NCBI GenBank assembly: GCA_027487485.1
Contig: JAIYDN010000059.1
Location: 1-64,000, forward strand
Length of the DNA stretch: 64,000 nucleotides
DNA from: Planctomycetaceae bacterium
GTDB lineage: Bacteria; Planctomycetota; Planctomycetia; Pirellulales; Pirellulaceae
Direction: 5' to 3'
Made by a program: the position numbers and the translations under genes. Of this stretch, positions 6,730-34,425 are shown piece after piece. Each line of letters starts with the position of its first letter. Position 1 is the stretch's first letter. The notes under the pieces are model-generated. The model searched no databases and was not told the DNA's origin. It saw only the letters and a program-made list of their open reading frames with translations.

Positions 6730-8883
6730 ATGGCGGAACCTCAAGCAGCACCCAGTGATCTAGGTGCAAAACTCGGAGATGTTCGAGCAAGTGTCCGACC
6801 CAATTTGGATCTGTCTCGGCATATGTTTTCGGGCAAGCCTACGTACGTGGTGCGAGATCCCGTAACGGCACAGACGCACCGTTTCTCCGCGCAGGATTAC
6901 CAACTTTTCATTTCTATTGATCAGACTCGAACGCTCAAAGAATCGGTCGAGCAGCTGATCAAGCAGAAACGCATTACCCCGGAACAAACGGATGACTTTT
7001 ATCGATTCGTCGTTCACTTGCACCAGATGGGCCTGCTGACGCTTCCCCTTTCGGATGGAAGCACGTTGTACAACCGATACAAACAACGTATGGATGCCCA
7101 AAAGAAGGGTAAGTTCATGAAGCTTCTCTTCATGAAGGTACCACTTGCCAAGCCAGATAAGTGGCTGGGGACAACCAAACATATTGTCGCGCCGCTTTTC
7201 ACGATGACGGCGTTTTGGATTTGGCTTGCATGTGCCATCACTTGTTCCATGGTGCTTCTCGTCAACTGGCGCGAGTTCGTCAATCCGCTGGGTACCATGT
7301 TGACTCTCAGCAACGTGCCAATACTTTGGATACTTTTGGTTGGGTTAAAAACATTCCATGAACTAGGCCACGCTTACGCTTGCAAGCGCTTCGGCGGGAC
7401 CGTCCCAGAAATGGGGGCCATGATCATGATGGGAACGCCTTGCGCATACGTCGATGCTTCGTCTTCCTGGAGTTTTCCAAATCGATGGCATCGAATGACA
7501 GTTGCGTTGGCGGGAATGTACTTTGAATCCATGTTGGCGATGGTTGCTGTCGTCGTTTGGCTATGTACGGATACAGGCCAGCTGCATTCGGCCGCTCAGT
7601 ATGCGATCGTGCTATCGACTGTCGTCACGATTGGCTTCAACGCCAATCCCCTGATGCGCTACGACGGCTATTTTATCTTGTGCGATTTGGTGAACATTCC
7701 AAACTTGCATCGAGATGCGAAAGCTGCCGCAAGTGGGTTTGTTAAATGGGTTCTGTACGGCTTAACACCTAAGGCATCAACCACAAGTGGTCCGATTCAC
7801 GTTGTTATGACCGCATTTGGATTGGCATGTATGGCATATTCCACTACCGTGGCAATCGGGATAGCAACCCTGCTGACTCTTTCGGTTCCCATCGTAGGGC
7901 CTCTTATCGCATTTTTTGTCTCAGGATTACCAGTCATTCGATTGATACAAAAGTGGACTTCCTATGTCGTAAGCTCCAAGGAACTAGAAGCTGTTCGATT
8001 TCGGGCAATCAGTGTTGCGGGTGGTTTGACCACAGCGATCGTGATAGGGATCTTTGCAATCCCAATTCCTGGGCATATTCAATCGTTGGGAATTATCCAT
8101 CGGCAAGAAGAACAGTCGGTGCGAGCCTCCGTCAGCGGTTTCCTTGTCAGTGCTAAGGCAAAAAACACGGAAGCTGTTGTCGCAAATCAGATTCTCTACC
8201 GTCTCGAAAACTCAGAACTGGAAACTCAAAGAAGCGACATACAATCACTTGTCCAGCAGCTCAACATCCAACTGCAATCTCAGCTGAACGTACCTGGCAA
8301 GCAATCCGAGCAGACGCAGATACAATTAGAAAATGCAAGAAAGCAGCTCGAACATATCGAGTCGCAGATTAGGCATTTAGATTTAGCAGCCCCCAAATCC
8401 GGTGAGTTCATTCCAGCACCAGAGAGTCCAAAAACTGGAAAGTTTGTTAGGCAGGGAGAATCGCTTGGTTCTATTTGCCGCGGCCCTTGGATTGTGCATT
8501 TGATGCTGACAGCGGATCAATGGTCTAGCATAGAGTCGGTACGTGACAAACCCGTGGGTGTTACCTTGGTGGGAAATACAAGAGAGTCATTGACGGGACG
8601 AATTATCAGCGGCGATATTGCGGGAACCAAGAAAATTGAAGAAGCTGCGTTGACCCACTCCGGCGGAGGAGACATCGCTGTTTCACCCGATATGGTTGCA
8701 ACCGAAAACTTCTTTGACGTTATCGTTGAGATCGATGCCGATTCCTTGAAATCATTGACCCGCCCTATCAAAGTAGGTATGACATCCATGGTCCAACTGC
8801 AAAGCGAGTCGGAAACCATCGGTAGCCTTCTATTGCGTCGCGGAGCAAGGCTGGTCAATCAAATTCGACAGGCTGGTAGTTGA
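6730..8883 (+). CDS. PqqD-like / site-2 protease (M50) / HlyD-like fusion protein
   Basis: A 717-residue polytopic membrane protein. Residues about 30-100 resemble a PqqD-type winged-helix peptide-binding domain (VRDPVTAQTHRFSAQDYQL). The M50 zinc motif HELGH is at 210-214, and the second motif NPLMRYDG, with Asp at about 312, is intact, so it should be an active intramembrane metalloprotease. Several further membrane segments follow up to about residue 450. The C-terminal 250 residues are an HlyD-like periplasmic arm with a lipoyl half-motif and a helical hairpin rich in Gln. Proteins of this build usually sit with HlyD adaptors in Planctomycetes; the substrate is unknown. Third gene of the operon. 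Confidence 0.8.
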   Translation: MAEPQAAPSDLGAKLGDVRASVRPNLDLSRHMFSGKPTYVVRDPVTAQTHRFSAQDYQLFISIDQTRTLKESVEQLIKQKRITPEQTDDFYRFVVHLHQMGLLTLPLSDGSTLYNRYKQRMDAQKKGKFMKLLFMKVPLAKPDKWLGTTKHIVAPLFTMTAFWIWLACAITCSMVLLVNWREFVNPLGTMLTLSNVPILWILLVGLKTFHELGHAYACKRFGGTVPEMGAMIMMGTPCAYVDASSSWSFPNRWHRMTVALAGMYFESMLAMVAVVVWLCTDTGQLHSAAQYAIVLSTVVTIGFNANPLMRYDGYFILCDLVNIPNLHRDAKAAASGFVKWVLYGLTPKASTTSGPIHVVMTAFGLACMAYSTTVAIGIATLLTLSVPIVGPLIAFFVSGLPVIRLIQKWTSYVVSSKELEAVRFRAISVAGGLTTAIVIGIFAIPIPGHIQSLGIIHRQEEQSVRASVSGFLVSAKAKNTEAVVANQILYRLENSELETQRSDIQSLVQQLNIQLQSQLNVPGKQSEQTQIQLENARKQLEHIESQIRHLDLAAPKSGEFIPAPESPKTGKFVRQGESLGSICRGPWIVHLMLTADQWSSIESVRDKPVGVTLVGNTRESLTGRIISGDIAGTKKIEEAALTHSGGGDIAVSPDMVATENFFDVIVEIDADSLKSLTRPIKVGMTSMVQLQSESETIGSLLLRRGARLVNQIRQAGS

Positions 8884-11606: not shown

Positions 11607-12278
11607 ATGTCAGTATTGACCGTATCGATTGAAGGCATCGAACTGCGTATCTTGGCTCAGCGTGGCCTTTATTGGCTAGAACAAGAAACACTATTCATCG
11701 CGGACACGCATTTTGGAAAAGAAGCGACCTTTCGCAGCGCAGGAATTGCAGCACCGCGAGGCTGTACCGGAGGGACCCTAGTTACCATTTCGAACATGTT
11801 GCGAGAATGCCATGCTTCACGTTTGGTTTTGTTGGGTGACATGTTTCATGCAAGGACATCCATTTCGGAAGACATTCGAAACTCCTTGGATACCTTCTTT
11901 GGAGAACATTCAGAATTGAAGTTCTCTTTGGTATTGGGGAATCACGATCGTCACATCAAGCGACTTCCATCGCATTGGCCGATTGAGATTTTAGAGACAG
12001 GAACCATGCTCGGAAGGATTTCCATTTCGCATTTTCCTCAAGCACCTGTGCCTGGCTCTGACTTGCTTCTGTGCGGGCACATTCATCCTGCCTATCGCCT
12101 TGTTTCTCGGTCCGATTCTATCGGCAAACTACCTTGTTTTTGGCTTTCACAAAACCAACTCGTCCTACCCGCAATCGGGGAGTTTACGGGGACGGAAGTG
12201 ATCAAGCCCAAGAAGTCCGATCGAATATGGGTGATCGCGGATGGGCAAGTCGTTGAAATCAACCAACCAAATCCTTGA
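11607..12278 (+). CDS. pdeM: Ligase-associated metallophosphoesterase PdeM
   Basis: A 223-residue calcineurin-like phosphoesterase. Metal-binding motifs are visible in order: IADTHFGK (D33, H35), LLGDMFHAR, LGNHDRH and CGHIHPAY. The FRSAGI segment after the first motif and the overall length fit the PdeM-type partner of the DEXH helicase. It starts 6 bp after the helicase stop, so they are co-expressed. Its last 20 bp overlap the 3' end of the opposing sigma-factor gene. Biochemical substrate is not clear from sequence. Confidence 0.85.
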   Translation: MSVLTVSIEGIELRILAQRGLYWLEQETLFIADTHFGKEATFRSAGIAAPRGCTGGTLVTISNMLRECHASRLVLLGDMFHARTSISEDIRNSLDTFFGEHSELKFSLVLGNHDRHIKRLPSHWPIEILETGTMLGRISISHFPQAPVPGSDLLLCGHIHPAYRLVSRSDSIGKLPCFWLSQNQLVLPAIGEFTGTEVIKPKKSDRIWVIADGQVVEINQPNP

Positions 12279-12837
12279 ATCGTTTCAAGGCTCGGTAGTA
12301 TCGCTTTTTTATAGTCTCCAAACCGATGTCCAGCAATTTGGAAATTTCGGCTAACGAGTAACCATCCACATGCCTCATCTCCAAGACCTCGCGATCGATC
12401 TGGTTCAACTCACCTAGCTTCTTTAGAATCTCCGATTGCAGATCGGATTTTGCTACTTTGCTCGTGAGCGACATTGTTGAATGGGTCAGACTAGCCACAA
12501 GGAAGTTATCCAAGTGATTCTCTTCCCGGAAGGGGTTTCTTGCTTCCCGAAATTGCTTGCGATGAACCTCACACAATACTTGCAAGCTAAGATGCCGAAG
12601 CCAAATCAAGGGTGGAAGTGCTGGATTAGAAAGGTACGCAGGAAGAGCCGTTTGAGCTCGGACAAATACCTCTTGGATTACATCGGAAGCGTCAAGTCTG
12701 GAAGCAAGCTTTCGGTTGATGCGGCGTTCCAAAAAACTTCTTAAGTGAGCTCGTTCATGCTCAAACAACCGTCCAAGTTCAGACGGCCCCTGATCCAACG
12801 GAATTTCAGCAGTAGAGTGCATCATAATCCTTCTCAC
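12259..12837 (-). CDS. ECF RNA polymerase sigma factor paired with a Ser/Thr kinase
   Basis: A 192-residue sigma-70 family protein. Region 2 (FEHERAHLRSFLERRINRKL...DASDVIQEVFVRA) and region 4 (LNQIDREVLEMRHVDGYSLAEISKLLDIGLETIKKRYYRALKRF) are both present. Region 4 ends in a helix-turn-helix. Its gene starts 35 bp after the stop of the kinase gene on the same strand. Sigma/kinase neighbours of this kind are a Planctomycetes hallmark in which the kinase is thought to control the sigma factor in place of a classical anti-sigma. The 3' end overlaps pdeM by 20 bp (convergent). Confidence 0.9.
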   Translation of the reverse strand: MRRIMMHSTAEIPLDQGPSELGRLFEHERAHLRSFLERRINRKLASRLDASDVIQEVFVRAQTALPAYLSNPALPPLIWLRHLSLQVLCEVHRKQFREARNPFREENHLDNFLVASLTHSTMSLTSKVAKSDLQSEILKKLGELNQIDREVLEMRHVDGYSLAEISKLLDIGLETIKKRYYRALKRFKDLVG

Positions 12838-12872: not shown

Positions 12873-14636
12873 TCACTTGGACTGTTGGAGAAAATTGTCG
12901 ATGATATTTTTCAGTTCTTGATTCGACTGACTACCCTCGGTCATCGTCTTTTGGAATTCCTGGCTAAAGGATGATTCTACAAGCCTGAGCCAAGAAACCA
13001 GCGTTTGGTCCGGGATCTTTAGGCTGACAATTTGCTCAAGCCTTGGTATCTCGCCCTGAAAGAGCGATGCGAGAACTCGGTCTGCTTTTTCTTGAGGGAC
13101 GCGCTTGTTGACGATCGCTTTTGCAAACAATTCAAGCGTTGTATGTCCTCGAAGCTTTTCACCCGCGCTCAATGTCGAATTATGAAGAGGGTGGTGCAAT
13201 GCGCTCACCTTGTTCGCATTCATGATGGGCGAATTGCGGTAGTTTTTAATCAACGAATCGAGTTCACCAGGTTTGAGGCCCTCGGTAGTAACCTTTTCGA
13301 CGATGCGGTCTATTTTCGAGGTCACTTCATCGGCCGAAGCTTGGTTGTTGCTTTGGCTGACTACCGAATGCTTGATGGCTTCTCCGATCACTTCCACGAA
13401 GCCCGATTCCTCATTTTCAATCGCAGAGGCTAGCTTCTTGAGGCTGTTATTCTGCTCTTGAGGCTTGATCACTGACATCGGATTGTGATCTGGACGAGCG
13501 AGCAGTTTGGGAGCAACGATTAAGGTAGGAACAGCAAGAAAGCAAAGGATTCCGCCTGCGACCGCATAGCGAACCCTATTGCGCATAGCTGTTTTGAACT
13601 CCTGTTCGGTCATGCGTTTGCCTATGCGTCTTCTGTCGCAAGGCGTCTTACCCTCAAGAAACCGGGCAAGCACGGCAGCCATCTCTTTGGCAGATTGGAT
13701 CCTTCTTTCAGGGTGCGGCTCGCAAGCTCGATCGATGATGGAAGCTAGTTCCTTAGCGATGTTCGGATTGACTTGCGACACCAGTGGCGTTTCTACTGGA
13801 CCGGTATTGTCCGTGCTTCCGTGACTGGCAAGTTCATACAAAGTCCGGCCAAGAGAATAGACATCGCATCGCGGATCGACCACCCCTCGCAATTGCTCCG
13901 GCGCCATGAAACGCGGCGTGCCCGCAATCTGTTTACTTTGGCTTACCGTCATTCCTAGCTCATTGACTTTGGCAAGACCGAAATCAATGATCCAGCACTT
14001 GCCGCTTTTGTCGATCAGAAGATTCGACGGCTTGATGTCTCGATGGATGATTTTATTTTGGTGAATGTATTCCATAGCGGAAGCAATCTCGAGCCCCCAA
14101 GTGGCCAACAGATTCCAATCGTTGTGCAGCTCTGATAGCCAATATCGAGCGGGTACGGTTGGTCGAGGCGAGAGAATTTCGGCAAGAGTGAGTCCCTCGA
14201 CCAAGTTGGTCACGATATAAACGTAATCTTCACTGGTGCCAAAGGACTCGATCTTCACGATATGGGGATGGCTCAACCGGCTCAGGCTCTCAATTTCCCG
14301 ATCGAGTCGTCCGATGTTGGAGAATTCGCGATCCAGCCGAACAAGTTTGATAGCAACAAATCGGCCGCTGTGGTGTTTGGCCTTATAGACAACACCCGAC
14401 GCGCCGTTCCCAATCTCTTCAATTAATTGGTAGTTGGGGATTTTTGGAAGCGGGAGCGATTTTCCACCGAGATCGCCTTCCAAAGCGGCCATCATCGGTA
14501 ATTCAGTCAGGATTCGATTCGAAAACTGAGGAAACTGCTTTGCCAACGCATGAACGCTGACCCGATTGCCTCGACGCAACTCTTGAAGGTAAACCTCCGT
14601 GATGTCGGTATAACTGATATCGAGACTAGCTTGCAT
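12873..14636 (-). CDS. Membrane-anchored Ser/Thr protein kinase (PknB-like)
   Basis: A 587-residue protein. An N-terminal 65-residue helical region precedes a complete Hanks-type kinase: glycine loop IGNGASGVVY, Lys97, HRDIKPSN with catalytic Asp200, DFG at 218-220, and an APE motif in MAPEQLRG. A single membrane span lies near 357-378 (AVAGGILCFLAVPTLIVAP). The remaining 200 residues are extracytoplasmic, helical and without a recognised domain, and may act as the sensor. Co-directional with the sigma factor 35 bp downstream, which is its likely target (inference from the known Planctomycetes arrangement). Confidence 0.9.
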   Translation of the reverse strand: MQASLDISYTDITEVYLQELRRGNRVSVHALAKQFPQFSNRILTELPMMAALEGDLGGKSLPLPKIPNYQLIEEIGNGASGVVYKAKHHSGRFVAIKLVRLDREFSNIGRLDREIESLSRLSHPHIVKIESFGTSEDYVYIVTNLVEGLTLAEILSPRPTVPARYWLSELHNDWNLLATWGLEIASAMEYIHQNKIIHRDIKPSNLLIDKSGKCWIIDFGLAKVNELGMTVSQSKQIAGTPRFMAPEQLRGVVDPRCDVYSLGRTLYELASHGSTDNTGPVETPLVSQVNPNIAKELASIIDRACEPHPERRIQSAKEMAAVLARFLEGKTPCDRRRIGKRMTEQEFKTAMRNRVRYAVAGGILCFLAVPTLIVAPKLLARPDHNPMSVIKPQEQNNSLKKLASAIENEESGFVEVIGEAIKHSVVSQSNNQASADEVTSKIDRIVEKVTTEGLKPGELDSLIKNYRNSPIMNANKVSALHHPLHNSTLSAGEKLRGHTTLELFAKAIVNKRVPQEKADRVLASLFQGEIPRLEQIVSLKIPDQTLVSWLRLVESSFSQEFQKTMTEGSQSNQELKNIIDNFLQQSK

Positions 14637-14855: not shown

Positions 14856-16517
14856 TCACTGACTTGACTTCATCTTTAGCTGTGCGGCAGCGGCCTGATC
14901 CACAGCACTGAAGATACGTGGGAAGCCCATCATTCCCAGGACTTTCGCGCTGGTCATGACCCCTGCTAGCAACGCTCCATTGACGCCTGGGACTCCGACG
15001 TCGCTGCCGGTCAGATACAGATTGCGCAACGACGTTTTTACCTTCCATGCGTTTTCAAACAATCGGTCAGGTTTGCAGGCTTGGCCGTAGATCATGCCAT
15101 TGGGATGCGACGTGAAGGACTCGACCGAGAGCGGTGTTGACACCTCTTGGTATTGAACAAGATCTCTCAACTTGGGATAGCTGCGACAGGCGTAGTCGAG
15201 CAAAATCTTGCCGAGCTTTTCCTTGTAAGCTTCGTACTCTTCACCGCGTTTCTTCCACCTGGAGTCTTCGAAGGGGAGCCATTTTTCCATATCGCTGAAG
15301 GTAACCAGTTGAGCGACGTGGGGCGTTTGACCGGGGTTTCGAAGACTCCCAAAGGACAGAAACATCCCTTCTAGATCTTCTAGTTCATTAAACTTTTCAT
15401 AACGATGTTTGGTGGAATCCATTTCGTCAAAAAGCCAATAGTTCGCTTCATCAAATCCATGCTTTCGCGGGTCATCCTTCAGGCCCATGTAGAGCACCAA
15501 ACAAGACGTGCCGACTTCGCAGCGTTTCATCTGAGCGCGTTCGCGAGTCACGTACTGCGAAGGTGCTAGTTTACCGAAGGTTGTGAATGCACCCGCATTG
15601 GAGATAACAACAGGCGCTCGAAATTCGACCGACTGCCCCTTGTGTTCTGCTCGTACCCCGACCGCTCGATTCCCTTCAACGAGAATGGTGGAAACAGCAT
15701 GGTTGATCAGGCAAGACCCGCCGTGAGCCTCAATGGTCTTGACGGCCCGTTCGCCGATTTGCTTGCTTCCACCCATAGGGTAGAAACCGCCATCCAAGTA
15801 ATCGCGCATGACCGTTCCGTGAAACGCAAATGCGCTCTGGTGGGGCAAGGTACCATAGGCAGGCCAGATACCAGAAAGAATTCCCTTCAACTTCGGATCT
15901 CGGAACCGCTGATCCAATACTTGCTTTGTCGTCATCGTAGCCCGACGACGTCCGAAAAATGTTAACAAGTCGGAAAATGGTCTTGGAAGTGTCTTGCCGA
16001 CAAACCACCGTGATATCCAGCCAAAGGTCGATTCGAGTTCTCGAAAGAACTTCTGGATCGCCTTGGCTTCGTCTGGAAACCGAGCGATAAGATCCGCTTC
16101 GTACTGCTTGCGATCATTGGGTACATCAAAGGTAAATTCTGGGAACACAAAACGTTCCGTGGTCGGCCCAATTTTATGCCATTCAAGACCCCCTCCTGTC
16201 ACAAAGTCCATGATCTTACGAGCCTGGGTGCCAGGTGCCATCTGACCGATGTAGTGAACACCTGGATCCCATTCGTAACCCTTCCTTCGGAACGCATGGG
16301 TGAAGCCGCCAATCTTAAAGTGCTTTTCTAGAACCAAGACTCTCTTGCCGGCGACTTGAGCAAGAATACTAGCGCATGTCAGCCCGCCCATTCCCGAACC
16401 GATGATAATAACATCGTAGGTTTTGCTATACGCTTCCTGAGTTGCGGACTTAAGGTGCCCTTGCACGGTGGAAGGATTTTCGTCCAAGAGTGTAGCAGGC
16501 GTATCGATGGAGTTCAT
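14856..16517 (-). CDS. FAD-dependent phytoene-desaturase / retinol-saturase-like oxidoreductase
   Basis: About 553 residues. An N-terminal dinucleotide-binding motif IIIGSGMGG is followed by the EKHFKIGGFTHAF segment and DPGVHYIG, typical of carotenoid isomerase and all-trans-retinol 13,14-reductase relatives. The C-terminus has the FAD motif LYLTGSDVGVPGVNGALLAG. It probably saturates, desaturates or isomerises a polyene or unsaturated lipid. Placed last in the polyketide/export gene run, 38 bp after the RND pump, so it may tailor the cluster's product. I chose the ATG at 16517; a TTG at 16538 in the same frame adds seven residues, and neither has a strong ribosome-binding site. Confidence 0.8.
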   Translation of the reverse strand: MNSIDTPATLLDENPSTVQGHLKSATQEAYSKTYDVIIIGSGMGGLTCASILAQVAGKRVLVLEKHFKIGGFTHAFRRKGYEWDPGVHYIGQMAPGTQARKIMDFVTGGGLEWHKIGPTTERFVFPEFTFDVPNDRKQYEADLIARFPDEAKAIQKFFRELESTFGWISRWFVGKTLPRPFSDLLTFFGRRRATMTTKQVLDQRFRDPKLKGILSGIWPAYGTLPHQSAFAFHGTVMRDYLDGGFYPMGGSKQIGERAVKTIEAHGGSCLINHAVSTILVEGNRAVGVRAEHKGQSVEFRAPVVISNAGAFTTFGKLAPSQYVTRERAQMKRCEVGTSCLVLYMGLKDDPRKHGFDEANYWLFDEMDSTKHRYEKFNELEDLEGMFLSFGSLRNPGQTPHVAQLVTFSDMEKWLPFEDSRWKKRGEEYEAYKEKLGKILLDYACRSYPKLRDLVQYQEVSTPLSVESFTSHPNGMIYGQACKPDRLFENAWKVKTSLRNLYLTGSDVGVPGVNGALLAGVMTSAKVLGMMGFPRIFSAVDQAAAAQLKMKSSQ

Positions 16518-16555
16518 AAGGATGGTCTTTCGTGGCAAGTTTTTTAAGTGACGAC

Positions 16556-19500: not shown

Positions 19501-19726
19501 CCGCGAGATCGCTGAGCTCTTCTTCCAGCTTGCGAGAAATAAGAGCTTCGATTCGCTCCACGGTTGCACCTGGGAATACCGTGGTGATCGCACCAAAGCG
19601 AGGTGTTAGGATTGGATCTTCGATCCTAGGTAGCGTAATCAAGGCCATGGTGCCGGACGCAATGGTCAGCACAATAGTCATCAGTAACAAGCGTGGGTTG
19701 CTAAGATACCACTGGGTAATGTTCAC
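16556..19726 (-). CDS. RND efflux pump, inner-membrane permease
   Basis: A 1056-residue AcrB/MexB-type transporter with twelve expected membrane helices. The N-terminal helix is followed by PRIEDPILTPRFGAITTVFPGA, and helix 4 carries GMLMDNAIVVIDEIER, with one of the two AcrB proton-relay Asp residues kept. Large periplasmic loops follow helices 1 and 7. The GTG start overlaps the stop of the MBL-adaptor gene by 4 bp (GTGA), so the two are translationally coupled. Likely exports the product of the neighbouring PKS pathway together with the fused adaptor and the outer-membrane lipoprotein upstream. Substrate is inferred from context only. Confidence 0.9.
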   Translation of the reverse strand: MNITQWYLSNPRLLLMTIVLTIASGTMALITLPRIEDPILTPRFGAITTVFPGATVERIEALISRKLEEELSDLADIKEVFSFSRPGVSLVIIELRDDVRKQDVPNAWAKVRERMEAAHLKMPATSLEPDLQELDAKANAMLVALKWTDSAPPSYSMLRRLAKRLQERLDQLPGTEKTSLFGDSKEEVVVELDPAVANSLGLSASDISSMIAGFDAKLPAGRVQGTAADLAIEVSGSLETMTRLSRTPIRKDANGAIVELGDIATISRGTPNPPPAKAIIADLPGVVIGAQVRDESRIDWWNKDAMDVLEKFRRELPEGIEMDIIFNQMPYVEARFEDLFSNFILGGVAVFLSTLIFLGWRSALVTSATMPLTCFVELSVLMFLEIPLHQMSISGLVIAMGMLMDNAIVVIDEIERKLKAGKDLQESIIECCRFLFIPLVGSTLTTVFSFAPIALMPGSTGEFVGTIAISTILAVIISIGFSLTVVPAFASFLLIGHVTKHNPLLNPFRLPERMLRFTLGLMLRFPRFGVLVTLVVPLIGFALEPYLEEQFFPPADRDQFQIQLELAANASMSETEALAREIRQVALDDPRIEEVHWFLGESAPAFYYNIIPDKSNLPNFAQAMVKCRSSLEAQGAIEALQAKVIDRFPQAHCVVRQLEQGPPFAAPIEILVLGNNLQQLRQLGDSIRLVLSQTPQITHTRSEMQEIIPKAMIDVDDQAAYLAGYDSASIAQILNFTLDGSTGGTIQEGTEEIPIRVRLPRQNRQGLNEVLSLKLQERLASSKTAHQGIPVSAISTIRLSQFSGGILRENGQRCNEIHAFIPAGTLPATVLKDFKSRLQASGFQLPDGYEIKYKGAAGEQETAIGNLLAYAVILGTAFVATLVFSTNSFRLAFLVCLIAMTSVGFSLIALWLTGLPLGFMAIIGIIGMKGVAVNDSLCILAAIQADERARLCSVARIIDVVIDNSRHVILTTVSTIAGFLPLYLAGGEFWPPLAICISYGVLGATVQALLLVPCGYLALYRFPFLKPKQPETNEYVHRFVPAYHSAPSMIAQPHRA

Positions 19727-22371
19727 TGCGTGGCTCCTTGGTTGTGATTCGACTCGGTCGATGCGGATAGGGACTCGGGGGAATCGATCGATGGGGTGAA
19801 GTCTGATTTCCGCTTTACCTGTTGACCTGGCGTTAATCGCCGAACACCTGTCGACACCAGCTGTGTGCCAGAGTCCAAGGTCCCTCGAACAAACGCACGT
19901 TCCGAATCGACCTGCACCACTTCGACTTCTCGGCGTCTCAAGATAAAGTTGTCACTGTCTTCCACTGGCTCCAACGCTAAAAGCGCCCAAAGCCCTTGGT
20001 CACCTTGAGTGAGTGCAGCCAACGGAACCCAAAAGCCGGCTAGATCCAATTTGCGAGACAGTTCAATTCGAGCGACTTGGCCAAAAAGGGAGCTATCCAG
20101 CTCGCTGGTTTGCAGCTCCAAAATCACGGTACTGGTTCGAGTGACCTCATCGAGCTCTGGGAGTACGGACTTGACGGCCGCTGTGTATTTTTTGTCACCA
20201 ATGGCTACCTGGACTTCGTTTTCGTTTTGGATGCTCGCGATGTACTCCAACGGTACCCCAATCCACACCTCGGGAGAGTCCTGATCGATCAATCGAAAGG
20301 CAGGAGTTCCTGGAGCAGTGACCGCGCCGGGCTCCACAAAACGATCGGACACGCTGGCTGCAAACGGGGATCGCAACACACTTTCGTCCAATTGAACTTG
20401 GAGCTGCTCTACGGTGGCCTCCAATTCGGCCAGTTGTGCTCGCTGTGCAAGTACCTGTTCCGACCGTGTCCCCTCCAGCAGTTCATCCAATGTGTTACGA
20501 ACCGATTTGAGCCCTTCTTCTTTTGCCGCTGCGTTGGTGCGTGCATTGTCGAGCTCTTGTTTGGAAACGGCACCCGCGTTGACCAAACGCTGAGCCCGAT
20601 CCAAGGACGTTCGAGCCAAATCGAGCTCTGCCTTGGCGGAGGCAACTTGCGCTCTTGCACTCTCGATCGTCTGCGCTCGTGGACCAGCGATCAATTCCGA
20701 CAATCTGGCTTCAACAGCGCGGTATTGAGCTTGAACTGCTTTGTAGTTTGCCTTCAATAGATTGGTATTCAACTTTGCAAGGATGGTATCTGCTTCAATG
20801 CGATCACCGCGTTGCACCAAGATCTCGTCGACGACACCAATACGATTGAAGCCGATTTGACTTGCCCGACGGGGTTTGACGACCCCTGTAAACTGCCTGG
20901 GGATTTCAGCTCGTGTTTGTTGGATAACCTCGATGGTCTCAACAGGAACGATGGTAGGTTGGGTTGTCGTATTTGCAGCAAAATGGGCCTCTGGAACGCT
21001 ATCCAGATGCAACATCTTTTGAGCTGCGCCACGAACCGTTTCCCAGTTCCAGTAAACCAAGCAGCCAAGGAGACATAGGACAGCAACCACGGTCAAGCGA
21101 GTCCATCGGGACCCAACCGCTTCCGTTGGTCGGTCCGATGACGATTCTGTTTCATCGGACGTGCCGGTATCCAATACCCGTTCAAAATGAATCGCATGGT
21201 TGTTGGCAAAAGGATCGGAACCAGTGCTCGAACTATTTGAATCAGCAGTAGGACGAATCCATCTGCCTTTCTTGATCGCGCCCCATTTCGTCGGCTTCGA
21301 AGTTGAAATCAGATAACGAAAGACACCATCGTCATCGGTTGTACGTTCCAAAAGACCGTGAAAATAAAGATGATTCAGCATCCCTACGATCTCGGGCAAA
21401 AGCAATCGCCTTTCTTCATTGGCTACAGCGCGACCGTAAACATGTTCTACGCATTCTATGGCTGCAATTGGCTGCGTAACGATAGACTGCAGTCGAAGCA
21501 ATGTCTTTCGGATGTTCTCGTCAATCTGTTGCAGCCTAGTCAAGACACCATAAAAAGGTCGTTGGTGCCCTGGTAAACATAGGGCTTCATTGTCGGCCAT
21601 CTGCATCAACCCACGGCAACTGCGCAACCATTCTCCGATCACGTCCACATCGCTCTCGGTGTAAGGGACTGTCAAATTGGAAGAAATGCTTGGAAGTATT
21701 TGGTCGCCAGACAAAACGCAGTCATCGCTCCATAGCGAAACATGTTCGGCGGCGTGGCCATAACTCATGGCAACACGCCAAACACGCTGACCGATCGTCA
21801 GTATCTGTCCGTCGACTAACGGAACGAAGTGATCAGGTGGCGGTGCGACCAAGGCACCGTATCGATTGGCTGCGCGTCTTCGAAAACCTTCTAGCTCGAT
21901 GCCCGTTAAGCCGGCGCGTTGCATGAATGTCACTTCCGACGGAAGCGGAAGCAATTGCTTGTTGCCAGACAGAAGCTTGCAGTTCAACCAGGTGGTGCGG
22001 GATGTCCACAGCTCGATGCCCTCGCTGGCGAATTCACCCGCAAGCCCGATATGGTCAGGATGAAAATGCGTAACGATCATTTTATTGAGCTGGAATGACT
22101 CAATATCGGGATGGCTCAAAGCGGCCTTCAATGCGTCGCGGCATTCAGCACTACGAACACCGGTATCCACCAGAGTCAAACCTTTTCCGTCCTCCAGGAG
22201 ATAAACGTTGATGGCTTGAAGCGAAGAAGCAACGGGCAATCGCACCCACCATATTCCTGGTGCCACCAAAAGTGGAACTCCGAAATCCGGATTTTGATCG
22301 CAAGCGATCTGGATTCCTGGTGACTCCTCAGTGAATCGTTCTTGAATTGCTGAATTCTTCGAGCTGATCAT
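19723..22371 (-). CDS. Fusion of metallo-beta-lactamase-fold hydrolase with RND periplasmic adaptor
   Basis: One uninterrupted 882-residue frame. Residues 30-350 are a complete MBL-fold domain with all ligands visible: HFHPDH (H102, H104, D106, H107), GHAAEH (H206), GDQ (D223) and GH (H269). A winged-helix tail of the LACTB2 sort follows to about 355. After a 65-residue polar linker comes one membrane span (about 426-442). The rest is an HlyD/AcrA-type adaptor: QFTGVVKPRRASQIGFNRIGVVDEILVQRGDRIEAD, a long helical hairpin (to about 680), then beta-barrel and C-terminal domains. Topology predicts a cytoplasmic hydrolase tied to a periplasmic pump adaptor. MBL-fold proteins include thioesterases that release polyketides, which would fit. 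Overlaps both neighbours by 4 bp. Confidence 0.85.
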   Translation of the reverse strand: MISSKNSAIQERFTEESPGIQIACDQNPDFGVPLLVAPGIWWVRLPVASSLQAINVYLLEDGKGLTLVDTGVRSAECRDALKAALSHPDIESFQLNKMIVTHFHPDHIGLAGEFASEGIELWTSRTTWLNCKLLSGNKQLLPLPSEVTFMQRAGLTGIELEGFRRRAANRYGALVAPPPDHFVPLVDGQILTIGQRVWRVAMSYGHAAEHVSLWSDDCVLSGDQILPSISSNLTVPYTESDVDVIGEWLRSCRGLMQMADNEALCLPGHQRPFYGVLTRLQQIDENIRKTLLRLQSIVTQPIAAIECVEHVYGRAVANEERRLLLPEIVGMLNHLYFHGLLERTTDDDGVFRYLISTSKPTKWGAIKKGRWIRPTADSNSSSTGSDPFANNHAIHFERVLDTGTSDETESSSDRPTEAVGSRWTRLTVVAVLCLLGCLVYWNWETVRGAAQKMLHLDSVPEAHFAANTTTQPTIVPVETIEVIQQTRAEIPRQFTGVVKPRRASQIGFNRIGVVDEILVQRGDRIEADTILAKLNTNLLKANYKAVQAQYRAVEARLSELIAGPRAQTIESARAQVASAKAELDLARTSLDRAQRLVNAGAVSKQELDNARTNAAAKEEGLKSVRNTLDELLEGTRSEQVLAQRAQLAELEATVEQLQVQLDESVLRSPFAASVSDRFVEPGAVTAPGTPAFRLIDQDSPEVWIGVPLEYIASIQNENEVQVAIGDKKYTAAVKSVLPELDEVTRTSTVILELQTSELDSSLFGQVARIELSRKLDLAGFWVPLAALTQGDQGLWALLALEPVEDSDNFILRRREVEVVQVDSERAFVRGTLDSGTQLVSTGVRRLTPGQQVKRKSDFTPSIDSPESLSASTESNHNQGATQ

Positions 22372-23384
22372 ATCAATCGGTCTTTCTGAATCGAATGCGG
22401 CTGCATGGTTGGATTGACTAGCACCTTGCCTGTCCTTCCTGATTGCTCGGACCGACGGATCGCTTCGGTGATTTGTTCGATGGGAAAAATCGAGTCAACT
22501 GCGCCGGACAGTTTCCCTTCGCATACCCAACTGGCTAGCTGTGCGACTTGCTGATTGCGATCTACGGCTGACATTTTGTTGAGAATTCTAGAGAGCCAAA
22601 AACCGACCAAGCTGACACTTCGAAAGATCAAGTGTTCGGGCGAAATGACACATGGCTCCATCGAGAGCATTCCGTAGTTGACAACCGTTCCATGCTCATT
22701 CAAACACCGAGCGAGCCTTTCGGTGGACTCCCCTCCCACACAGTCGAGAGCCAATCGCAACGGCGTTTTTCCTATTTGCTCACGAACATGCAAAGCGACA
22801 TCTTCACCGTCGAGAAAGCATGCTGTACCGCCAAGATTTTGCACTTGCGCTATTTGCGACTCGCGTTGGACTAAGTTGATGGTCTTGAGACCAATAAGGT
22901 TGGCCAGTTGAATGACATACTGTCCGACCGCTGAAAGCGGTGCGTTTTGTATCACCGAATCGCCAGGCTTCAGAGTGGCAAATTCCGTCAACAGTTTCCA
23001 GGCTGTCAATCCCGTTACTTTCAACATCGACATTTGGTTCATGTCAGCCCCCGCTGGTACCTTTACGACAAGCGTTGCGGGAACTTTGCGGTACTGGCTC
23101 CAATTGTTGTTGGCTAGCAGGATGACAGGATCGCCAACGCATAAATCTTTGACGGACTTTCCAATTTCCACGACATGCCCAGCGGCCTCCATACCGATGG
23201 TCGTTGGGGGCTGATTCAAGAATCCGTATTGCCCCAAAATCATTGCGGAATCCGCTGGATTCAGTGGGAACGCATTAATCTGTACGATCACTTCCCAAGC
23301 CGACGGATCGGTGGGGACAGCGACCTCTTCGCATTCTGCGACGAGAGACGGCGGTCCATATTTCTTGACAATGATCTGTTTCAT
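22368..23384 (-). CDS. MECR/Etr1-like enoyl-thioester reductase (MDR family), possible trans-acting ER
   Basis: A 338-residue medium-chain reductase without visible zinc ligands. Motifs resemble mitochondrial enoyl-thioester reductase: NPADSAMILGQYG, GMEAAGHVVEIG, GDSVIQNAPLSAVGQYVIQLA, GLKTINLVQ, RLALDCVGG and the GFWLS segment. It should reduce 2-enoyl thioesters with NADPH. It is encoded directly after the PKS and alpha-oxoamine synthase, and its stop overlaps the start of the MBL-adaptor gene (ATGA). The PKS's own ER region looks degenerate, so this enzyme may supply enoyl reduction in trans, as LovC does for LovB. The pairing is inference. Confidence 0.8.
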   Translation of the reverse strand: MKQIIVKKYGPPSLVAECEEVAVPTDPSAWEVIVQINAFPLNPADSAMILGQYGFLNQPPTTIGMEAAGHVVEIGKSVKDLCVGDPVILLANNNWSQYRKVPATLVVKVPAGADMNQMSMLKVTGLTAWKLLTEFATLKPGDSVIQNAPLSAVGQYVIQLANLIGLKTINLVQRESQIAQVQNLGGTACFLDGEDVALHVREQIGKTPLRLALDCVGGESTERLARCLNEHGTVVNYGMLSMEPCVISPEHLIFRSVSLVGFWLSRILNKMSAVDRNQQVAQLASWVCEGKLSGAVDSIFPIEQITEAIRRSEQSGRTGKVLVNPTMQPHSIQKDRLI

Positions 23385-23539: not shown

Positions 23540-24910
23540 TTAAAAAATCCCCTTGGACTTGGGGGCAACTTTTAATAGACCTGTGATGACATTTAAGGTG
23601 TGATCTATTTGCTGTTGCGTGTGATTGGTGTTGATAAAGAATCGCAATCGGCATTTGTTGCGAGGCACGATCGGATACATCATGGGATAGGTGCAAATAC
23701 CTGCTTCGAAGAGACGGACCGACATCCATAGAGCTAGCTCGGAGTCTCGCATCATAATGGGTACGACCCCTGAATCGCGGCTATTGTACGTATCCAGTCC
23801 TGCCGCCTGCGCTCGTTCAATAAAGTACGCAGCATTCTGCTGAAGTCTCAATGCACGCTCAGGCTCTGCTCGCATCACTCGAAGCGCTTCGAGCGCAGCG
23901 GCCGCATTAGCTGGCGTCGGCGAAGCACCGTAAAGTAAAACACCTGGCGCGTAGTACTTGAGCATGGCAATCAATGGCTTGGGACCTGCTACAAATCCAC
24001 CACAGGTACCAAACGATTTGCTCAGCGAACCGAACAGAATATCGATCTCGCTTCCAGAGATATCGAAGTAATCGGTGACTCCCATGCCTCTCTTGCCGAT
24101 CACCCCAAGCGAATGAGCTTCGTCCACCATCAACAGCGCTTGGTATTTCTTTTTGAGCTCGATGAAGCGGGGTATGTTGGGAATGTCTCCATCCATGCTG
24201 TACACTCCCTCGACAAGGATAAATACCCTTTCGAAGTTGGACCGGTGTGTTTTGAGCAATTGTTCTAGCGCCTCCAGGTCATTGTGAGGAAACGCGATTC
24301 GCCGGGAACCTGTGATCTTGCATCCGATCAACGCAGAATTATGGATCAATTCATCGTAAAGGATCAGATCCTGGCTCCGGCTTAGGTATCCGATGGTAAA
24401 TGCGTTCGTGCTGTAGCCACCGACAGACAGGACTGCGTCTTCCGTTCCAAGAGCATCGCATACTTCCAATTCAAATGTCCGATGAATATCGATCTCACCC
24501 GTGATCGATCGTCCAGACCCAGTGCCCACCCCAAAATCTTCAATAGCCTGAATCGAAGCCTGTTTTACTCGTGTTTCAAAGCCCAATGCTAAGTAGTTGT
24601 AGGTCGAGTAATTGATATACTCGCGACCTTGAATCATGACGGTTGCATCGGAGCCTCCCACGTGGGGCTGGAATAGATTCTGAGGGAACTTTTGCTTCTC
24701 GTAGTACCACTTCATGGTGGTGTACTCTTTGTACTCGGGAAACAATTCGAACTGGTAGCAGGCAGGGGTGACGTTGGTTGGAGCGTTACCAGAAGCACCT
24801 TCCTGAACGATCTCTGGAGTGGTTGGGGGCTTTTCGGAAGAAGCCGTGGATTGCTGGTTTTTTACAAGCAGACTACTTCTTAATCGATCGATACTAGACT
24901 TTAGGTTCAT
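23540..24910 (-). CDS. Alpha-oxoamine synthase (serine palmitoyltransferase/KAPA synthase-like, PLP)
   Basis: A 456-residue fold-type I PLP enzyme. The PLP lysine is at 298 in SLSKSFGTCGG, with Asp263 and His266 in DEAHSLG and the GTGSGRSITG loop near 129-138. The family condenses an acyl thioester with an amino acid and loses CO2, giving an alpha-amino ketone (BioF, serine palmitoyltransferase, Fum8). An extra 60-residue N-terminal stretch is present. It sits 75 bp after the PKS, which has no thioesterase, and no other biotin genes are near. I therefore favour off-loading of the polyketide chain as an amino-ketone over biotin synthesis. The amino-acid substrate cannot be read from sequence. 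Confidence 0.85.
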   Translation of the reverse strand: MNLKSSIDRLRSSLLVKNQQSTASSEKPPTTPEIVQEGASGNAPTNVTPACYQFELFPEYKEYTTMKWYYEKQKFPQNLFQPHVGGSDATVMIQGREYINYSTYNYLALGFETRVKQASIQAIEDFGVGTGSGRSITGEIDIHRTFELEVCDALGTEDAVLSVGGYSTNAFTIGYLSRSQDLILYDELIHNSALIGCKITGSRRIAFPHNDLEALEQLLKTHRSNFERVFILVEGVYSMDGDIPNIPRFIELKKKYQALLMVDEAHSLGVIGKRGMGVTDYFDISGSEIDILFGSLSKSFGTCGGFVAGPKPLIAMLKYYAPGVLLYGASPTPANAAAALEALRVMRAEPERALRLQQNAAYFIERAQAAGLDTYNSRDSGVVPIMMRDSELALWMSVRLFEAGICTYPMMYPIVPRNKCRLRFFINTNHTQQQIDHTLNVITGLLKVAPKSKGIF

Positions 24911-31960: not shown

Positions 31961-33532
31961 TTATCGCTGGAGATAGCGATTATGCATTATGGGAGGGTTC
32001 GGATTCGATGCCTCGAATTGCACAGGATATTGATGATTCACCATGCATGGTTCTTGCGTGACCCCAGGGCAATAGGCCCCACTTACGTCCCAGCCACCAC
32101 CGAGAGCAACAAATAAATTCACGAGACTTTGAGCTACCTGTCCTTGATTCTCTGCAAGTGAATCTTGCACCTGAACCAATTCGGATTGCAACAGATAAAC
32201 CCGGTTAAAGTCGGTTGCACCTTCGGCAAAGGCGATTTGCGAGATATTCACGGCCGCCGCCGAATTTTGAGCCGCTTCCTGCAAATTGTGCATTCTTTCC
32301 CAATAGTTGATAAACGCGGCTTGCGCATCTTGAGCCTCTTTGTAGGCGTTCAGAATTGTGCTGTGATATGCAAGCCTCAATCGCTCGAAGGCTTCTTTCT
32401 CAGCAACCACACGATTCTTGATTCTTCCATAGTTCAGGAGATTCCAGGATGCGGCAGGCCCTGTTGCCCCCACCAAGCTCGACGGCTGAAACAACTCGTT
32501 CATATTCTGGGCTGATACGCCTACCGTGCCGACTAAGCTGAGTTGCGGATAGAAGTCCGCTTTTGCGATTCCAATTCTTGCACTCTGAGACGCCAGTTGA
32601 CGTTCGGCTATTTGGATATCTGGTCTTCGGCGCAACAGATCGTTTGGAATTCCCATCGCGATCGATGGCGGGGGTTGAGGTACGTTTCCAAAGTTTTCTG
32701 TGGTGGAAAAGGCATCTTCTGGAATATGCCCTAACAACACGCATAATTGGTGATTGGCCTGCCGCCGAAGAATTTCTAACGTTGGTACGACGGACTCGGT
32801 TTGTGAAAGATTGGCCTTCGCCTGATGGTAATCCAGTTTGACTGCGGTACCGACCCGAATTTTCTCTTCGGTCAACCGTAAAGTGGCTCGTTGGATTTCG
32901 ATATTCTTTTGAGCCAAAAGAATGCGTTGTTCGACCGTTCTTAAATCAATATAAGTTCTCGCCACTTCTCCGACCAGCAAAACTTTGGCCTGATCGAAGG
33001 CCGCCATCGAGGCATCGATGTTGGCATCTGCCGCTTCCACGATGCGACGGTACTTGCCCCAAAAGTCGAGTTCCCAGGCTGCCGAAAAATTAGATGTAAA
33101 GGAATTGAAGGAAGTGGCGGTTTGAAAAAATCCTGGTACGACCACAAAATTGGCGTCGTTTTCGCTGATTCGAACTCGGTTGAAGCCGGCATTGGCGGTT
33201 TGTTGTTGAGGAAAGAGATTGCCCGCCGCCACTTGGCGTAAAGCCCGGGCCTCAAGAATTCTCTGACCTGCTTGCTTCAAGTCCAGGTTGTTGGCTAACG
33301 CCGTTTCCATAAGCTGGTCCAGAGCTGGGTCATTGAAGACTCGCCACCAAACCTTTTCATCAACCGGTTGGCCATGGAAGCGACTGTTCGCTTGGTCGGT
33401 CCAGCCTTCCTGAAGATAATCTACGGAGGGTTTACAAAAGTCAGGCCCCACTTTGCAGCCGCTGATCGCTAGAAGCAAGCCAAGGAAGAGATTTCTGCCT
33501 CGATGTTTCGAAGGGCTTTCGTAATTTGACAT
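31961..33532 (-). CDS. NodT-type outer-membrane efflux lipoprotein (TolC family)
   Basis: About 523 residues. The signal peptide ends in a lipobox (LLAISGC), followed directly by KVGPDFCKP, the standard start of NodT-type outer-membrane factors. Two OEP repeats follow, with WWRVFNDPALDQLMETALANNLDL, RRPDIQIAERQLASQSARIGIAKADFYPQLSL and AYKEAQDAQAAF. It should be a trimeric outer-membrane channel. Same strand as the PKS cluster but 615 bp upstream, with repeats between, so it may have its own promoter. It is the natural partner of the RND pump and fused adaptor. I chose the ATG at 33532; a GTG at 33586 adds 18 residues before the signal peptide. Confidence 0.88.
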   Translation of the reverse strand: MSNYESPSKHRGRNLFLGLLLAISGCKVGPDFCKPSVDYLQEGWTDQANSRFHGQPVDEKVWWRVFNDPALDQLMETALANNLDLKQAGQRILEARALRQVAAGNLFPQQQTANAGFNRVRISENDANFVVVPGFFQTATSFNSFTSNFSAAWELDFWGKYRRIVEAADANIDASMAAFDQAKVLLVGEVARTYIDLRTVEQRILLAQKNIEIQRATLRLTEEKIRVGTAVKLDYHQAKANLSQTESVVPTLEILRRQANHQLCVLLGHIPEDAFSTTENFGNVPQPPPSIAMGIPNDLLRRRPDIQIAERQLASQSARIGIAKADFYPQLSLVGTVGVSAQNMNELFQPSSLVGATGPAASWNLLNYGRIKNRVVAEKEAFERLRLAYHSTILNAYKEAQDAQAAFINYWERMHNLQEAAQNSAAAVNISQIAFAEGATDFNRVYLLQSELVQVQDSLAENQGQVAQSLVNLFVALGGGWDVSGAYCPGVTQEPCMVNHQYPVQFEASNPNPPIMHNRYLQR

Positions 33533-33870
33533 CGCCTGTTTCTTTGTTCGATCCGACACAACCCTTGTGAACTCGTTTTCCCCCACCAGGCCTTAAATCG
33601 GCCTGGACGGTAGGGCCAGTAAAATCAGACCCAAGTCGTCCATAGAATCCGTAGAATCCTTCCGGCTTCTGTTTGGATGACGTTGGATCGCGACCAATAG
33701 ACCGGACTTTCGAACCCCTCCATCGAGCCTGTTTTCGTTGCGATCGTTAGTTTTTACCTAAATCCTACTAATTCGCTCTAATAAAATGGGACCTGGGTGG
33801 TCTTCTCTTTAGGAACCCATCAATCGGCTGGTATGAAACTGGATTGGGAGAAACGCAGCGTGAAAAAGCC
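33533..33870. other. Divergent intergenic region between efflux channel and sigma-factor genes
   Basis: Holds the start regions of two divergently transcribed genes. I see AT-rich stretches around 33750-33790 that could belong to a promoter but no convincing box pair, no RNA and no clear hairpin. Confidence 0.4.
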
Positions 33871-34425
33871 ATGGTGAAATCGATTCCAGACCTCCATTTG
33901 AACAAAGTACCGGAAACGGGGCCGCTGACGGTACGGACATTGTTCGAGAACGAGGAATCGAATTTGCTGCGATTTGCTTTTTCACTCACGGGCCGCCGAG
34001 CGGTGGCAGAAGAAATTGTGCAAGACGTTTTCTTACAGCTTCATGCGAAATGGGACGAGGTCCAAGAGCCGCGAGCTTGGCTGTTCCGTTGTGTCCGCAA
34101 TCGAGCGTTTCATCATTTGCGCAAAAGCAAGCGTGAGACTCTCGGAATCGACAACGACGGAAGCCTGGGTGCCGAAACTTGCGAGGATCCAGCCGACGAT
34201 CTTGTATCGCGCATGGAAACCGTCGCGGAACTGAAACAATTGATTAACCAACTACCGGAGAAAGATCGCCGGCTTGTGCAACTGAAATACTACGAAGATC
34301 TCAAGTACCGCGACATCAGCCAACGTACGGGGCTGACGATCAGCAACGTCGGCTTTCGACTGCATCAGGTTCTAAAGAAGCTTGCGGCAGGGCTATTGCT
34401 TGGAGGAGTAGAAAACGAATCATGA
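33871..34425 (+). CDS. ECF RNA polymerase sigma factor
   Basis: About 184 residues. Region 2: FENEESNLLRFAFSLTGRRAVAEEIVQDVFLQLHAKW and the WLFRCVRNRAFHHLRK segment. Region 4: LINQLPEKDRRLVQLKYYEDLKYRDISQRTGLTISNVGFRLHQVLKKL. The start is taken at ATG 33871; a TTG at 33844 is also in frame. Its stop overlaps the start of the next gene (ATGA), which begins with an anti-sigma-like region, so the two form a regulator/anti-regulator pair. The first gene of a three-gene unit running to 44322. Confidence 0.9.
   Translation: MVKSIPDLHLNKVPETGPLTVRTLFENEESNLLRFAFSLTGRRAVAEEIVQDVFLQLHAKWDEVQEPRAWLFRCVRNRAFHHLRKSKRETLGIDNDGSLGAETCEDPADDLVSRMETVAELKQLINQLPEKDRRLVQLKYYEDLKYRDISQRTGLTISNVGFRLHQVLKKLAAGLLLGGVENES

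Follow-up and report, generated by a model that had tools for sequence, protein, structure and literature searches.

A metallo-beta-lactamase-fold hydrolase fused to an RND pump adaptor within a polyketide and oxoamine synthase gene cluster of Pirellulaceae

Introduction

Tripartite RND pumps load their substrates from the periplasmic side and assemble with a 6:3:3 stoichiometry. The fusion of a cytosolic processing enzyme to an exporter is known from the PCAT peptidase-ABC exporters, which resemble the predicted arrangement described here in that respect but differ in having a cysteine peptidase, an ABC transporter, and a peptide cargo. For a possible direct hand-over of lipid-like polyketides from a synthase to an RND exporter, the precedent consists of separate proteins: as described in excerpts of PMC1238737, the mycobacterial polyketide-lipid enzyme PpsE physically contacts the RND exporter MmpL7, the contact being between a synthase and a permease domain on separate proteins, and no enzyme is fused to an adaptor. 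On the biosynthetic side, excerpts of PMC12134224 describe sphingolipid production by PfSgaAB, in which an iterative type I polyketide synthase (PKS) adjoins an alpha-oxoamine synthase (AOS) resembling serine palmitoyltransferase (SPT), and the AOS, PfSgaB, frees the chain through condensation with an amino acid.

Here, we show that a metallo-beta-lactamase (MBL)-fold hydrolase specific to a gene cluster, its metal ligands intact, is genuinely fused to the periplasmic adaptor encoded beside the cluster's RND permease, and that this fusion is conserved. It was found in the window, the whole 64,000-nt stretch of Pirellulaceae DNA that we analysed (genome G000; Table 1).

Results

Table 1. Features of the fusion gene and its cluster in the window. 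Residue numbers refer to the fusion protein.
Feature	Coordinates	Strand	Basis
Fusion gene, MBL hydrolase-linker-membrane span-RND periplasmic adaptor, 882 aa	19723..22371	minus	Frame; domains; three homologous fusions
MBL-fold domain, residues 1-356	21304..22371	minus	Pfam PF00753; PDB 5u8o/6ao1/5i0p alignment; seven ligands
Linker (residues 354-421) and membrane-span segment (422-444; hydropathy peak 423-441)	21040..21312	minus	G098 identity; hydropathy
RND periplasmic adaptor domain and C-terminal tail, residues 477-882	19726..20943	minus	TIGR01730; MexJ 20yy
RND permease, 1056 aa	16556..19726	minus	ACR_tran, 444 bits (cut-off 28)
Stand-alone enoyl-thioester reductase, MECR-like (P0003), probable trans enoyl reductase (ER)	22368..23384	minus	Best PDB matches, mitochondrial enoyl reductases 7ayc/7ayb/2vcy/1zsy
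AOS (P0004), SPT-like	23540..24910	minus	Best PDB matches, SPT 3a2b/8guh
Type I PKS (P0005), probably iterative, KS-AT-DH-(no recognisable ER)-KR-ACP, 2119 aa	24986..31345	minus	Pfam
Outer-membrane efflux channel	31961..33586	minus	TIGR01845, 310 bits (cut-off 210)
FAD oxidoreductase, carotenoid isomerase/desaturase type	14856..16538	minus	Family searches; no NCBIfam cut-off reached among best 25 of 51
Ser/Thr kinase-like protein (named by inspection)	12873..14636	minus	Translation
Sigma-70-like regulator (named by inspection)	12259..12837	minus	Translation

The fusion is encoded by one frame that opens with ATG and contains no internal stops, whereas the plus-strand frame over the same stretch is riddled with them. 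When the bases of the 19.6-kb region were shuffled 50 times, the longest stop-free run was 278 aa, which rules out a chance open frame. The gene shares 4 bp with the enoyl-reductase gene upstream and another 4 bp with the RND permease gene downstream. A first-pass annotation of this DNA had described a single 882-residue frame, naming no strand, as well as an overlapping permease gene, seven metal ligands, a membrane span followed by an AcrA/HlyD-type adaptor, and PKS, oxoamine synthase, and enoyl reductase genes upstream; each of these agrees with what we observe, the upstream genes through Pfam and NCBIfam.

The N-terminal half belongs to the MBL superfamily. Pfam Lactamase_B (PF00753) matches residues 53-235 with 49.7 bits (cut-off 22.7), and the HxHxDH motif and the further H, D, and H ligands are all in place (H102, H104, D106, H107, H206, D223, H269). 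In one split homologue (G139), the position of D106 is occupied by Glu. The MBL-fold hydrolases 5u8o, 6ao1, and 5i0p align over residues ~25-355 (E values of 8e-45 to 3e-41), which is nearly the whole MBL half, although they are stand-alone proteins with generic names only (Zn-dependent hydrolase, beta-lactamase domain protein). No NCBIfam cut-off, whether for a thioesterase, a lactonase, or a beta-lactamase, is reached by the MBL half, and likewise none is reached by five of its relatives. A class B beta-lactamase can be rejected on the NCBIfam scores (33.3 vs 100 for bla_class_B_core and 29.5 vs 200 for subclass B1). The structure 4ad9, LACTB2 by molecule name, gives a weak single-sequence match over residues 48-115 (6e-7) and a profile match over residues 179-352 (4.8e-20). 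The gene context of three proteobacterial MBL relatives, viewed as frame lengths and N-termini, indicates no clear substrate.

Between the two halves lie a linker of ~65 residues and the strongest hydrophobic peak of the protein (1.75); weaker peaks occur within the MBL half at residues 30-48 (1.43) and 323-341 (1.21). By simple hydropathy, the N-terminus is hydrophilic and carries no signal. Because there is no such signal and the single span comes after the MBL domain, this domain should be cytoplasmic, and a secreted MBL is rejected by hydropathy alone. The first-pass annotation had placed the enzyme exactly at the pump mouth, which appears wrong in detail, since the MBL domain is predicted to face the cytoplasm and RND pumps load from the opposite side.

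The C-terminal half is an adaptor of the AcrA/MexJ type, with 150.4 bits for the NCBIfam RND_mfp model TIGR01730 (cut-off 94.9) and 39.6 bits for Pfam HlyD_3 over residues 665-756 (cut-off 22.2), while HlyD_D23 falls marginally below its cut-off (29.2 vs 30). As with such adaptors, its gene adjoins that of an RND permease, and the same gene run includes an outer-membrane channel, but it differs from them in having ~420 extra N-terminal residues, the enzyme and linker, ahead of the span. In a plasmid search with the whole fusion protein, none of the 141 matching records covers 80% of the query. No MBL-adaptor fusion is named in the titles and abstract openings listed from the open-licence literature, which is weak evidence of absence.

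The surrounding cluster resembles the PfSgaAB type in that a monomodular PKS lies adjacent to an SPT-like AOS. When compared to a Pseudomonas plasmid pair that looks sga-like (not PfSgaA or PfSgaB themselves), P0005 is 34% identical over 1188 N-terminal columns and 36% over 351 C-terminal columns, and P0004 is 41% identical over 392. The AOS reaches neither the NCBIfam equivalog for serine palmitoyltransferase (284.2 vs 640 bits) nor the BioF model (306.5 vs 426). One difference is in the enoyl reductase: the Pseudomonas PKS carries it in cis (ADH_zinc_N, 81 bits), whereas none of the seven PKSs examined from the 10 planctomycete clusters has an ER domain above cut-off, and a MECR-like gene sits beside the window's PKS. 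Faint, sub-threshold ADH_N matches occur in the PKSs of the window (19.6 bits, in the expected ER region) and of G177. The planctomycete clusters further add the MBL, the RND pump, and a CrtISO-like FAD enzyme; in two proteobacterial regions, for which the gene table is incomplete, no RND, adaptor, or MBL gene is listed. A homologue of the FAD enzyme is present in 8/10 clusters; G177 holds only its beginning before the contig ends, and the contigs of G098 and G139 end short of its place. Homologues of the kinase-like protein and sigma-70-like regulator adjoin the G198 and G138 clusters, and none were seen on the G871 contig. As a side observation, the cluster suggests PKS-derived amino-lipid chemistry with a separate enoyl reductase in Pirellulaceae.

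Among 241 family genomes searched, four carry the fusion (G000, G098, G198, and G871), the other three being 45-75% identical to the window's, and six more have the MBL as a separate gene inside the same cluster. In G198 and G871, the core cluster (PKS, AOS, ER, fusion, RND, FAD enzyme, and channel) surrounds the fusion. In G098, one contig carries ER, fusion, and RND, and a second contig ends in the start of the PKS (88% identical); a cluster-type AOS was not found in this genome, presumably because of an assembly gap. The claimed hydrolase-adaptor fusion within a PKS cluster is genuine and present in four genomes of the family. The first-pass annotation had named a sequencing or assembly join, or homologues consistently split into unrelated genes, as grounds for dismissing the fusion. 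Although split versions do occur, the four fused genomes are different ones (one matches Neorhodopirellula pilleata Pla100) and hold the frame across a drifting linker, so that an artefact joining two genes is vanishingly improbable and, for practical purposes, refuted. As for split homologues, the MBL is indeed unfused in 6/10 clusters, but always lies within the same cluster.

Both halves are conserved, while the linker drifts yet stays in frame. Between G000 and G098, identity is 87% in the MBL core and 82% in the adaptor, compared with 48% in the span and 32% in the linker (one gap column). The corresponding dN values are 0.09 for the MBL and 0.11 for the adaptor; with dS at 2.6 for the adaptor and undefined for the MBL, synonymous divergence is too high for a dN/dS ratio to be relied on.

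In the MBL, adaptor, AOS, and RND trees, all fused sequences lie to the same side of a branch with strong support, and this also holds for the PKS tree, which excludes G871. These trees are unrooted unless outgroups are named, and two of the four fused RND sequences are partial. The RND tree pairs G138 with the fused sequences (100/99), whereas in the adaptor tree, the non-cluster adaptors of G051, G133, and G096 are nearer the fused ones (82/82) than are the adaptors of G138 and G139. The adaptor tree thus fails to match a G138-like ancestor in any simple way. Our wider samples are partial (396 genomes of the order and two phylum samples of 392 each); in the order sample and one phylum sample, both halves occur together only in the window's genome, and the other three fused genomes are not among the matches. 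A contig scan with two MBL motifs, which is not a census, covers the best 80 of 171 relatives, and no split planctomycete clusters appear among the matches listed.

The MBL is a pathway enzyme first, attached to the pump later, because its gene directly follows that of the enoyl reductase in 10/10 clusters and is not beside the adaptor gene in 4/10 (G072, G103, G006, and G177). This distribution and the six unfused clusters also mean that the pathway can dispense with tethering. The G138 cluster is ordered as in the window, except that the MBL and adaptor genes are separate and overlap by 16 bp, and in G139 the pair is 16 bp apart (longest-frame starts), so fusion would need little change. Translationally coupled neighbours may simply have lost the intervening stop as a neutral convenience, with co-expression and membrane attachment becoming fixed, no channelling, and the MBL unchanged. 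The prevalence of unfused MBLs and the unconserved linker fit this account, but the fused state is kept in four genomes down to ~45% identity and the linker evolves far faster than either domain, and we consider neutral fusion possible but doubtful.

Discussion

The explanation that we favour as a whole, tentatively and at slightly under an even chance, is that a pathway MBL has been placed on the pump adaptor, so that biosynthesis is tethered where export takes place. Assisted by the MECR-like trans enoyl reductase, the PKS would build an acyl-ACP that is long and reduced. The chain would be freed as an amino-ketone by the SPT-like synthase and modified by the FAD enzyme, the product probably being a sphingoid-like amino lipid. 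With the MBL in the cytoplasm and the span crossing the inner membrane, the adaptor would join the RND trimer and the outer-membrane channel, and up to six MBL copies could ring each pump given the 6:3:3 stoichiometry. The MBL itself would most likely hydrolyse a pathway thioester or ester, in the role of a type II (editing) thioesterase or of a deacylase acting late, and this substrate step is the weakest link in the scheme. Its attachment to the pump would hold the biosynthetic enzymes at the point of export.

The first-pass annotation was right about a genuine fusion in a PKS cluster, but its proposal that the MBL releases or trims the product at the pump needs correction with respect to release as well as placement. 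By analogy with PfSgaB (excerpts of PMC12134224), the adjacent AOS would condense the chain with an amino acid, and therefore the oxoamine synthase, not the MBL, is probably the releasing enzyme, and a thioesterase is dispensable in principle.

The same reasoning lends something to an alternative in which the MBL leaves PKS-bound thioesters alone and instead detoxifies or matures the finished product (an ester, lactone, or phosphoester) before export, as self-protection. Its sequence relatives include the paraoxonase 8zxg and the lactonase ancestor 5hif, and an exporter fusion suits a last step. However, no NCBIfam lactonase cut-off is reached and the predicted MBL side is opposite the periplasmic loading side, and we regard this alternative as quite unlikely.

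Returning to tethering by a pathway MBL, a stronger form of it is that up to six cytoplasmic MBLs ring the pump base, dock the PKS and AOS, and couple completion of the sphingoid-like lipid to export. This form is unlikely in our view, but if true, it would represent covalent coupling of a synthase to its exporter via an RND adaptor. Unlike the separate proteins of the mycobacterial precedent, a pathway enzyme is here covalently joined to the adaptor, and as G138 keeps both genes apart in the same order, fused and split versions offer a natural comparison of environmental planctomycetes with and without the fusion for studying tethering.

Finally, we note candidate internal starts in the window's fusion gene from which a free adaptor might be made. 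From residue 341 to where the span ends, they comprise GTG at 428 and TTG at 341, 400, 426, and 438, and visual inspection shows no obvious ribosome site for these. Past the span follow ATG 453 and TTG 454.

Architecture of the fusion and reality of the join

The 882-residue frame that the first-pass annotation described as a metallo-beta-lactamase-fold (MBL) enzyme joined through a membrane span to an RND adaptor is indeed found, and both halves score above family cut-offs: the N-terminal half as an MBL-fold hydrolase (Pfam Lactamase_B, 49.7 bits vs. 22.7) and the C-terminal half as an RND adaptor (NCBIfam TIGR01730, 150.4 bits vs. 94.9). By sequence, MBL residues ~25–355 align with the solved MBL-fold hydrolases 5u8o, 6ao1 and 5i0p, and the adaptor half aligns with MexJ. 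The hydropathy maximum (1.75, residues 423–441) lies between the two halves, with two lesser hydrophobic peaks within the MBL half. All seven metal ligands claimed for the MBL are present where that annotation placed them, as is the 4-bp overlap with the RND permease gene, which recurs with the neighbor on the other side.

Fused profile searches of 241 family genomes (E 1e-70 or better) recovered fusions in four: the window's own genome (G000), G098, G198 and G871, the last having been left out of profile building. Identity to the window's fusion is 75% in G098, 45–46% in G198 and 45% over 847 columns in G871. Between G000 and G098, the MBL core is 87% identical and the adaptor 82%, while the span (48%), the linker (32%), the region just past the span (34%) and the C-terminal tail (28%) are less so, and the alignment has a single gap column from residue 30 onward. 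The corresponding dN values are 0.09 (MBL) and 0.11 (adaptor), with a dS of 2.6 for the adaptor and undefined for the MBL. Because two constrained domains stay in frame across a drifting linker, the join looks like a translated fusion.

Each half is ordinary by itself. Among the matches to the fusion, no single Pfam or NCBIfam family model covers both halves, and no MBL-adaptor fusion was found among the titles and abstract openings listed from the open-licence literature. In peptide export, PCATs have an enzyme fused to an exporter; their likeness to the MBL-adaptor fusion is this join, the PCAT cargo being a peptide. The nearest functional precedent found is the PKS-RND contact of MmpL7-PpsE (PMC1238737).

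Coordinates of the window features discussed
Feature	Position	Strand	Basis
MBL-adaptor fusion gene, 882 codons ATG to stop	22371..19723	minus	frame reading
640-aa protein: weak GAF matches, span near residue 378, HlyD-type adaptor	4803-6725	+	
717-aa M50-peptidase-like membrane protein, after the GAF-HlyD adaptor gene	6730-8883	+	
Sigma-70-type factor, before the 2325-aa frame	33844-34425		
VWA/YfbK-type protein, before the 2325-aa frame	34422-37229		
2325-aa frame	37345-44322	+	

Split relatives and gene order

As a feature of the homologues, the fusion holds only in part: beside the four fused genomes, six of the 241 (G177, G138, G139, G072, G103 and G006; E 1e-70 or better) carry the MBL as a separate gene. 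G138 has the window's order on one strand (outer-membrane channel, PKS, alpha-oxoamine synthase (AOS), enoyl reductase (ER), MBL, adaptor, RND, FAD enzyme, kinase, sigma gene), with MBL and adaptor encoded in two frames that share 16 bp; G139 has a 16-bp spacer between them, and its contig ends thereafter. Three clusters (G072, G103, G006) have adaptor and RND at the opposite end and the MBL between the ER and the FAD enzyme; the ER-MBL-FAD enzyme order recurs in G177, where the contig end cuts the FAD enzyme. The MBL immediately follows the ER in all 10 clusters, counting G871 and G098 (whose contig starts inside the ER gene). The separate MBL of G139 (L042 12490–13626) has Glu at the D106 metal-ligand position (HFHPEH).

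Phylogeny and distribution

A well-supported branch sets the four fused rows apart in both the MBL tree (100/99, Proteobacteria outgroups) and the adaptor tree (100/100). The same holds for fused-cluster rows in the RND tree (4 rows, 100/100; G098 and G871 partial), the AOS tree (3 rows, 100/99; G098 not included) and the tree of the first part of the PKS (3 rows, 100/100; G871 left out). The simplest history is a single fusion event in a G138-type cluster. This history fits the RND tree, where G138 groups with the fused rows (100/99), but not the adaptor tree: nearest to the fused rows are non-cluster adaptors of G051, G133 and G096 (82/82), and the G138/G139 pair lies apart with unresolved placement. 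G072-type pumps are elsewhere in both trees. The trees suggest, with no more than moderate support, that pumps were recruited more than once, the MBL staying.

At order level (396 genomes), 38 match the fused profile at 1e-70, both halves being matched by the window's own genome only; of 392 phylum genomes, 16 match at 1e-80, one being the window's own and the other 15 matching in just the adaptor part. Scanning an 84,980-species collection with two MBL motifs gave 171 relatives, and among the 80 kept, two are fused (L052, L096) and 78, Proteobacteria by their titles, match the MBL half only. Eight of 199 family genomes carry AOS relatives above 600 bits, and a phylum-wide sample of 392 genomes has none besides the window's own, the next matches being 42–46% identical. 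Many sampled family genomes also have long frames, most of ~1130–1220 aa, with an AOS 41–44% identical to that of the window (P0004), e.g., G000:C94:137993-139207; this second kind may belong to another amino-lipid pathway.

Cluster chemistry

The window PKS contains KS, AT, DH, KR and ACP domains (Pfam), with only ADH_N at 19.6 bits, below the 23.5-bit cut-off, in the ER region. The scan took in 7 of the 10 clusters (G072, G103 and G098 were left out), and the six further PKSs (G198, G006, G871, G138, G177, G139) have no ER match above the cut-off, G177 showing an ADH_N trace of 21.8 bits. Unlike these, a Pseudomonas plasmid PKS adjoining an AOS has a full ER. PKS and AOS genes on plasmids L196 (Pseudomonas) and L197 (Paraburkholderia) lie beside LTA-synthase-family and capsule-type genes. 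The stand-alone reductase is likely the trans ER, since mitochondrial enoyl-[ACP] reductases are its closest matches in sequence.

The solved protein nearest to the AOS is serine palmitoyltransferase; the AOS falls below every NCBIfam equivalog cut-off, so its amino acid need not be serine. PfSgaAB of P. fluorescens MYb115 yields sphinganines, its AOS joining acyl thioesters to serine (PMC12134224), and by analogy the planctomycete product is probably of this class.

Topology and proposed role

With its first ~28 residues hydrophilic, one span and a necessarily periplasmic adaptor, the fusion would place its MBL domain in the cytoplasm; all four separate MBLs examined (P0012–P0015) likewise start hydrophilic. 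Since RND pumps take up substrate from the periplasmic side, a cytoplasmic MBL at the pump base could not act at the substrate entrance, which speaks against the earlier proposal of action at the pump mouth. Nor do we favor the MBL as the chain-releasing enzyme, because the AOS would release the finished chain; an editing thioesterase or late deacylase is favored instead, the data fitting more than one substrate. The fusion could hold this pathway enzyme, perhaps the PKS/AOS complex as well, at the export site. The six clusters without a fusion are the strongest counter-evidence to such a fusion-based mechanism.

Other features of the window

The 2325-aa frame has no Pfam match at E 0.001. In the 640-aa protein, one GAF match is slightly above the cut-off and one below; given this GAF-span-HlyD arrangement, the MBL fusion may not be the lineage's only adaptor to carry an N-terminal domain.
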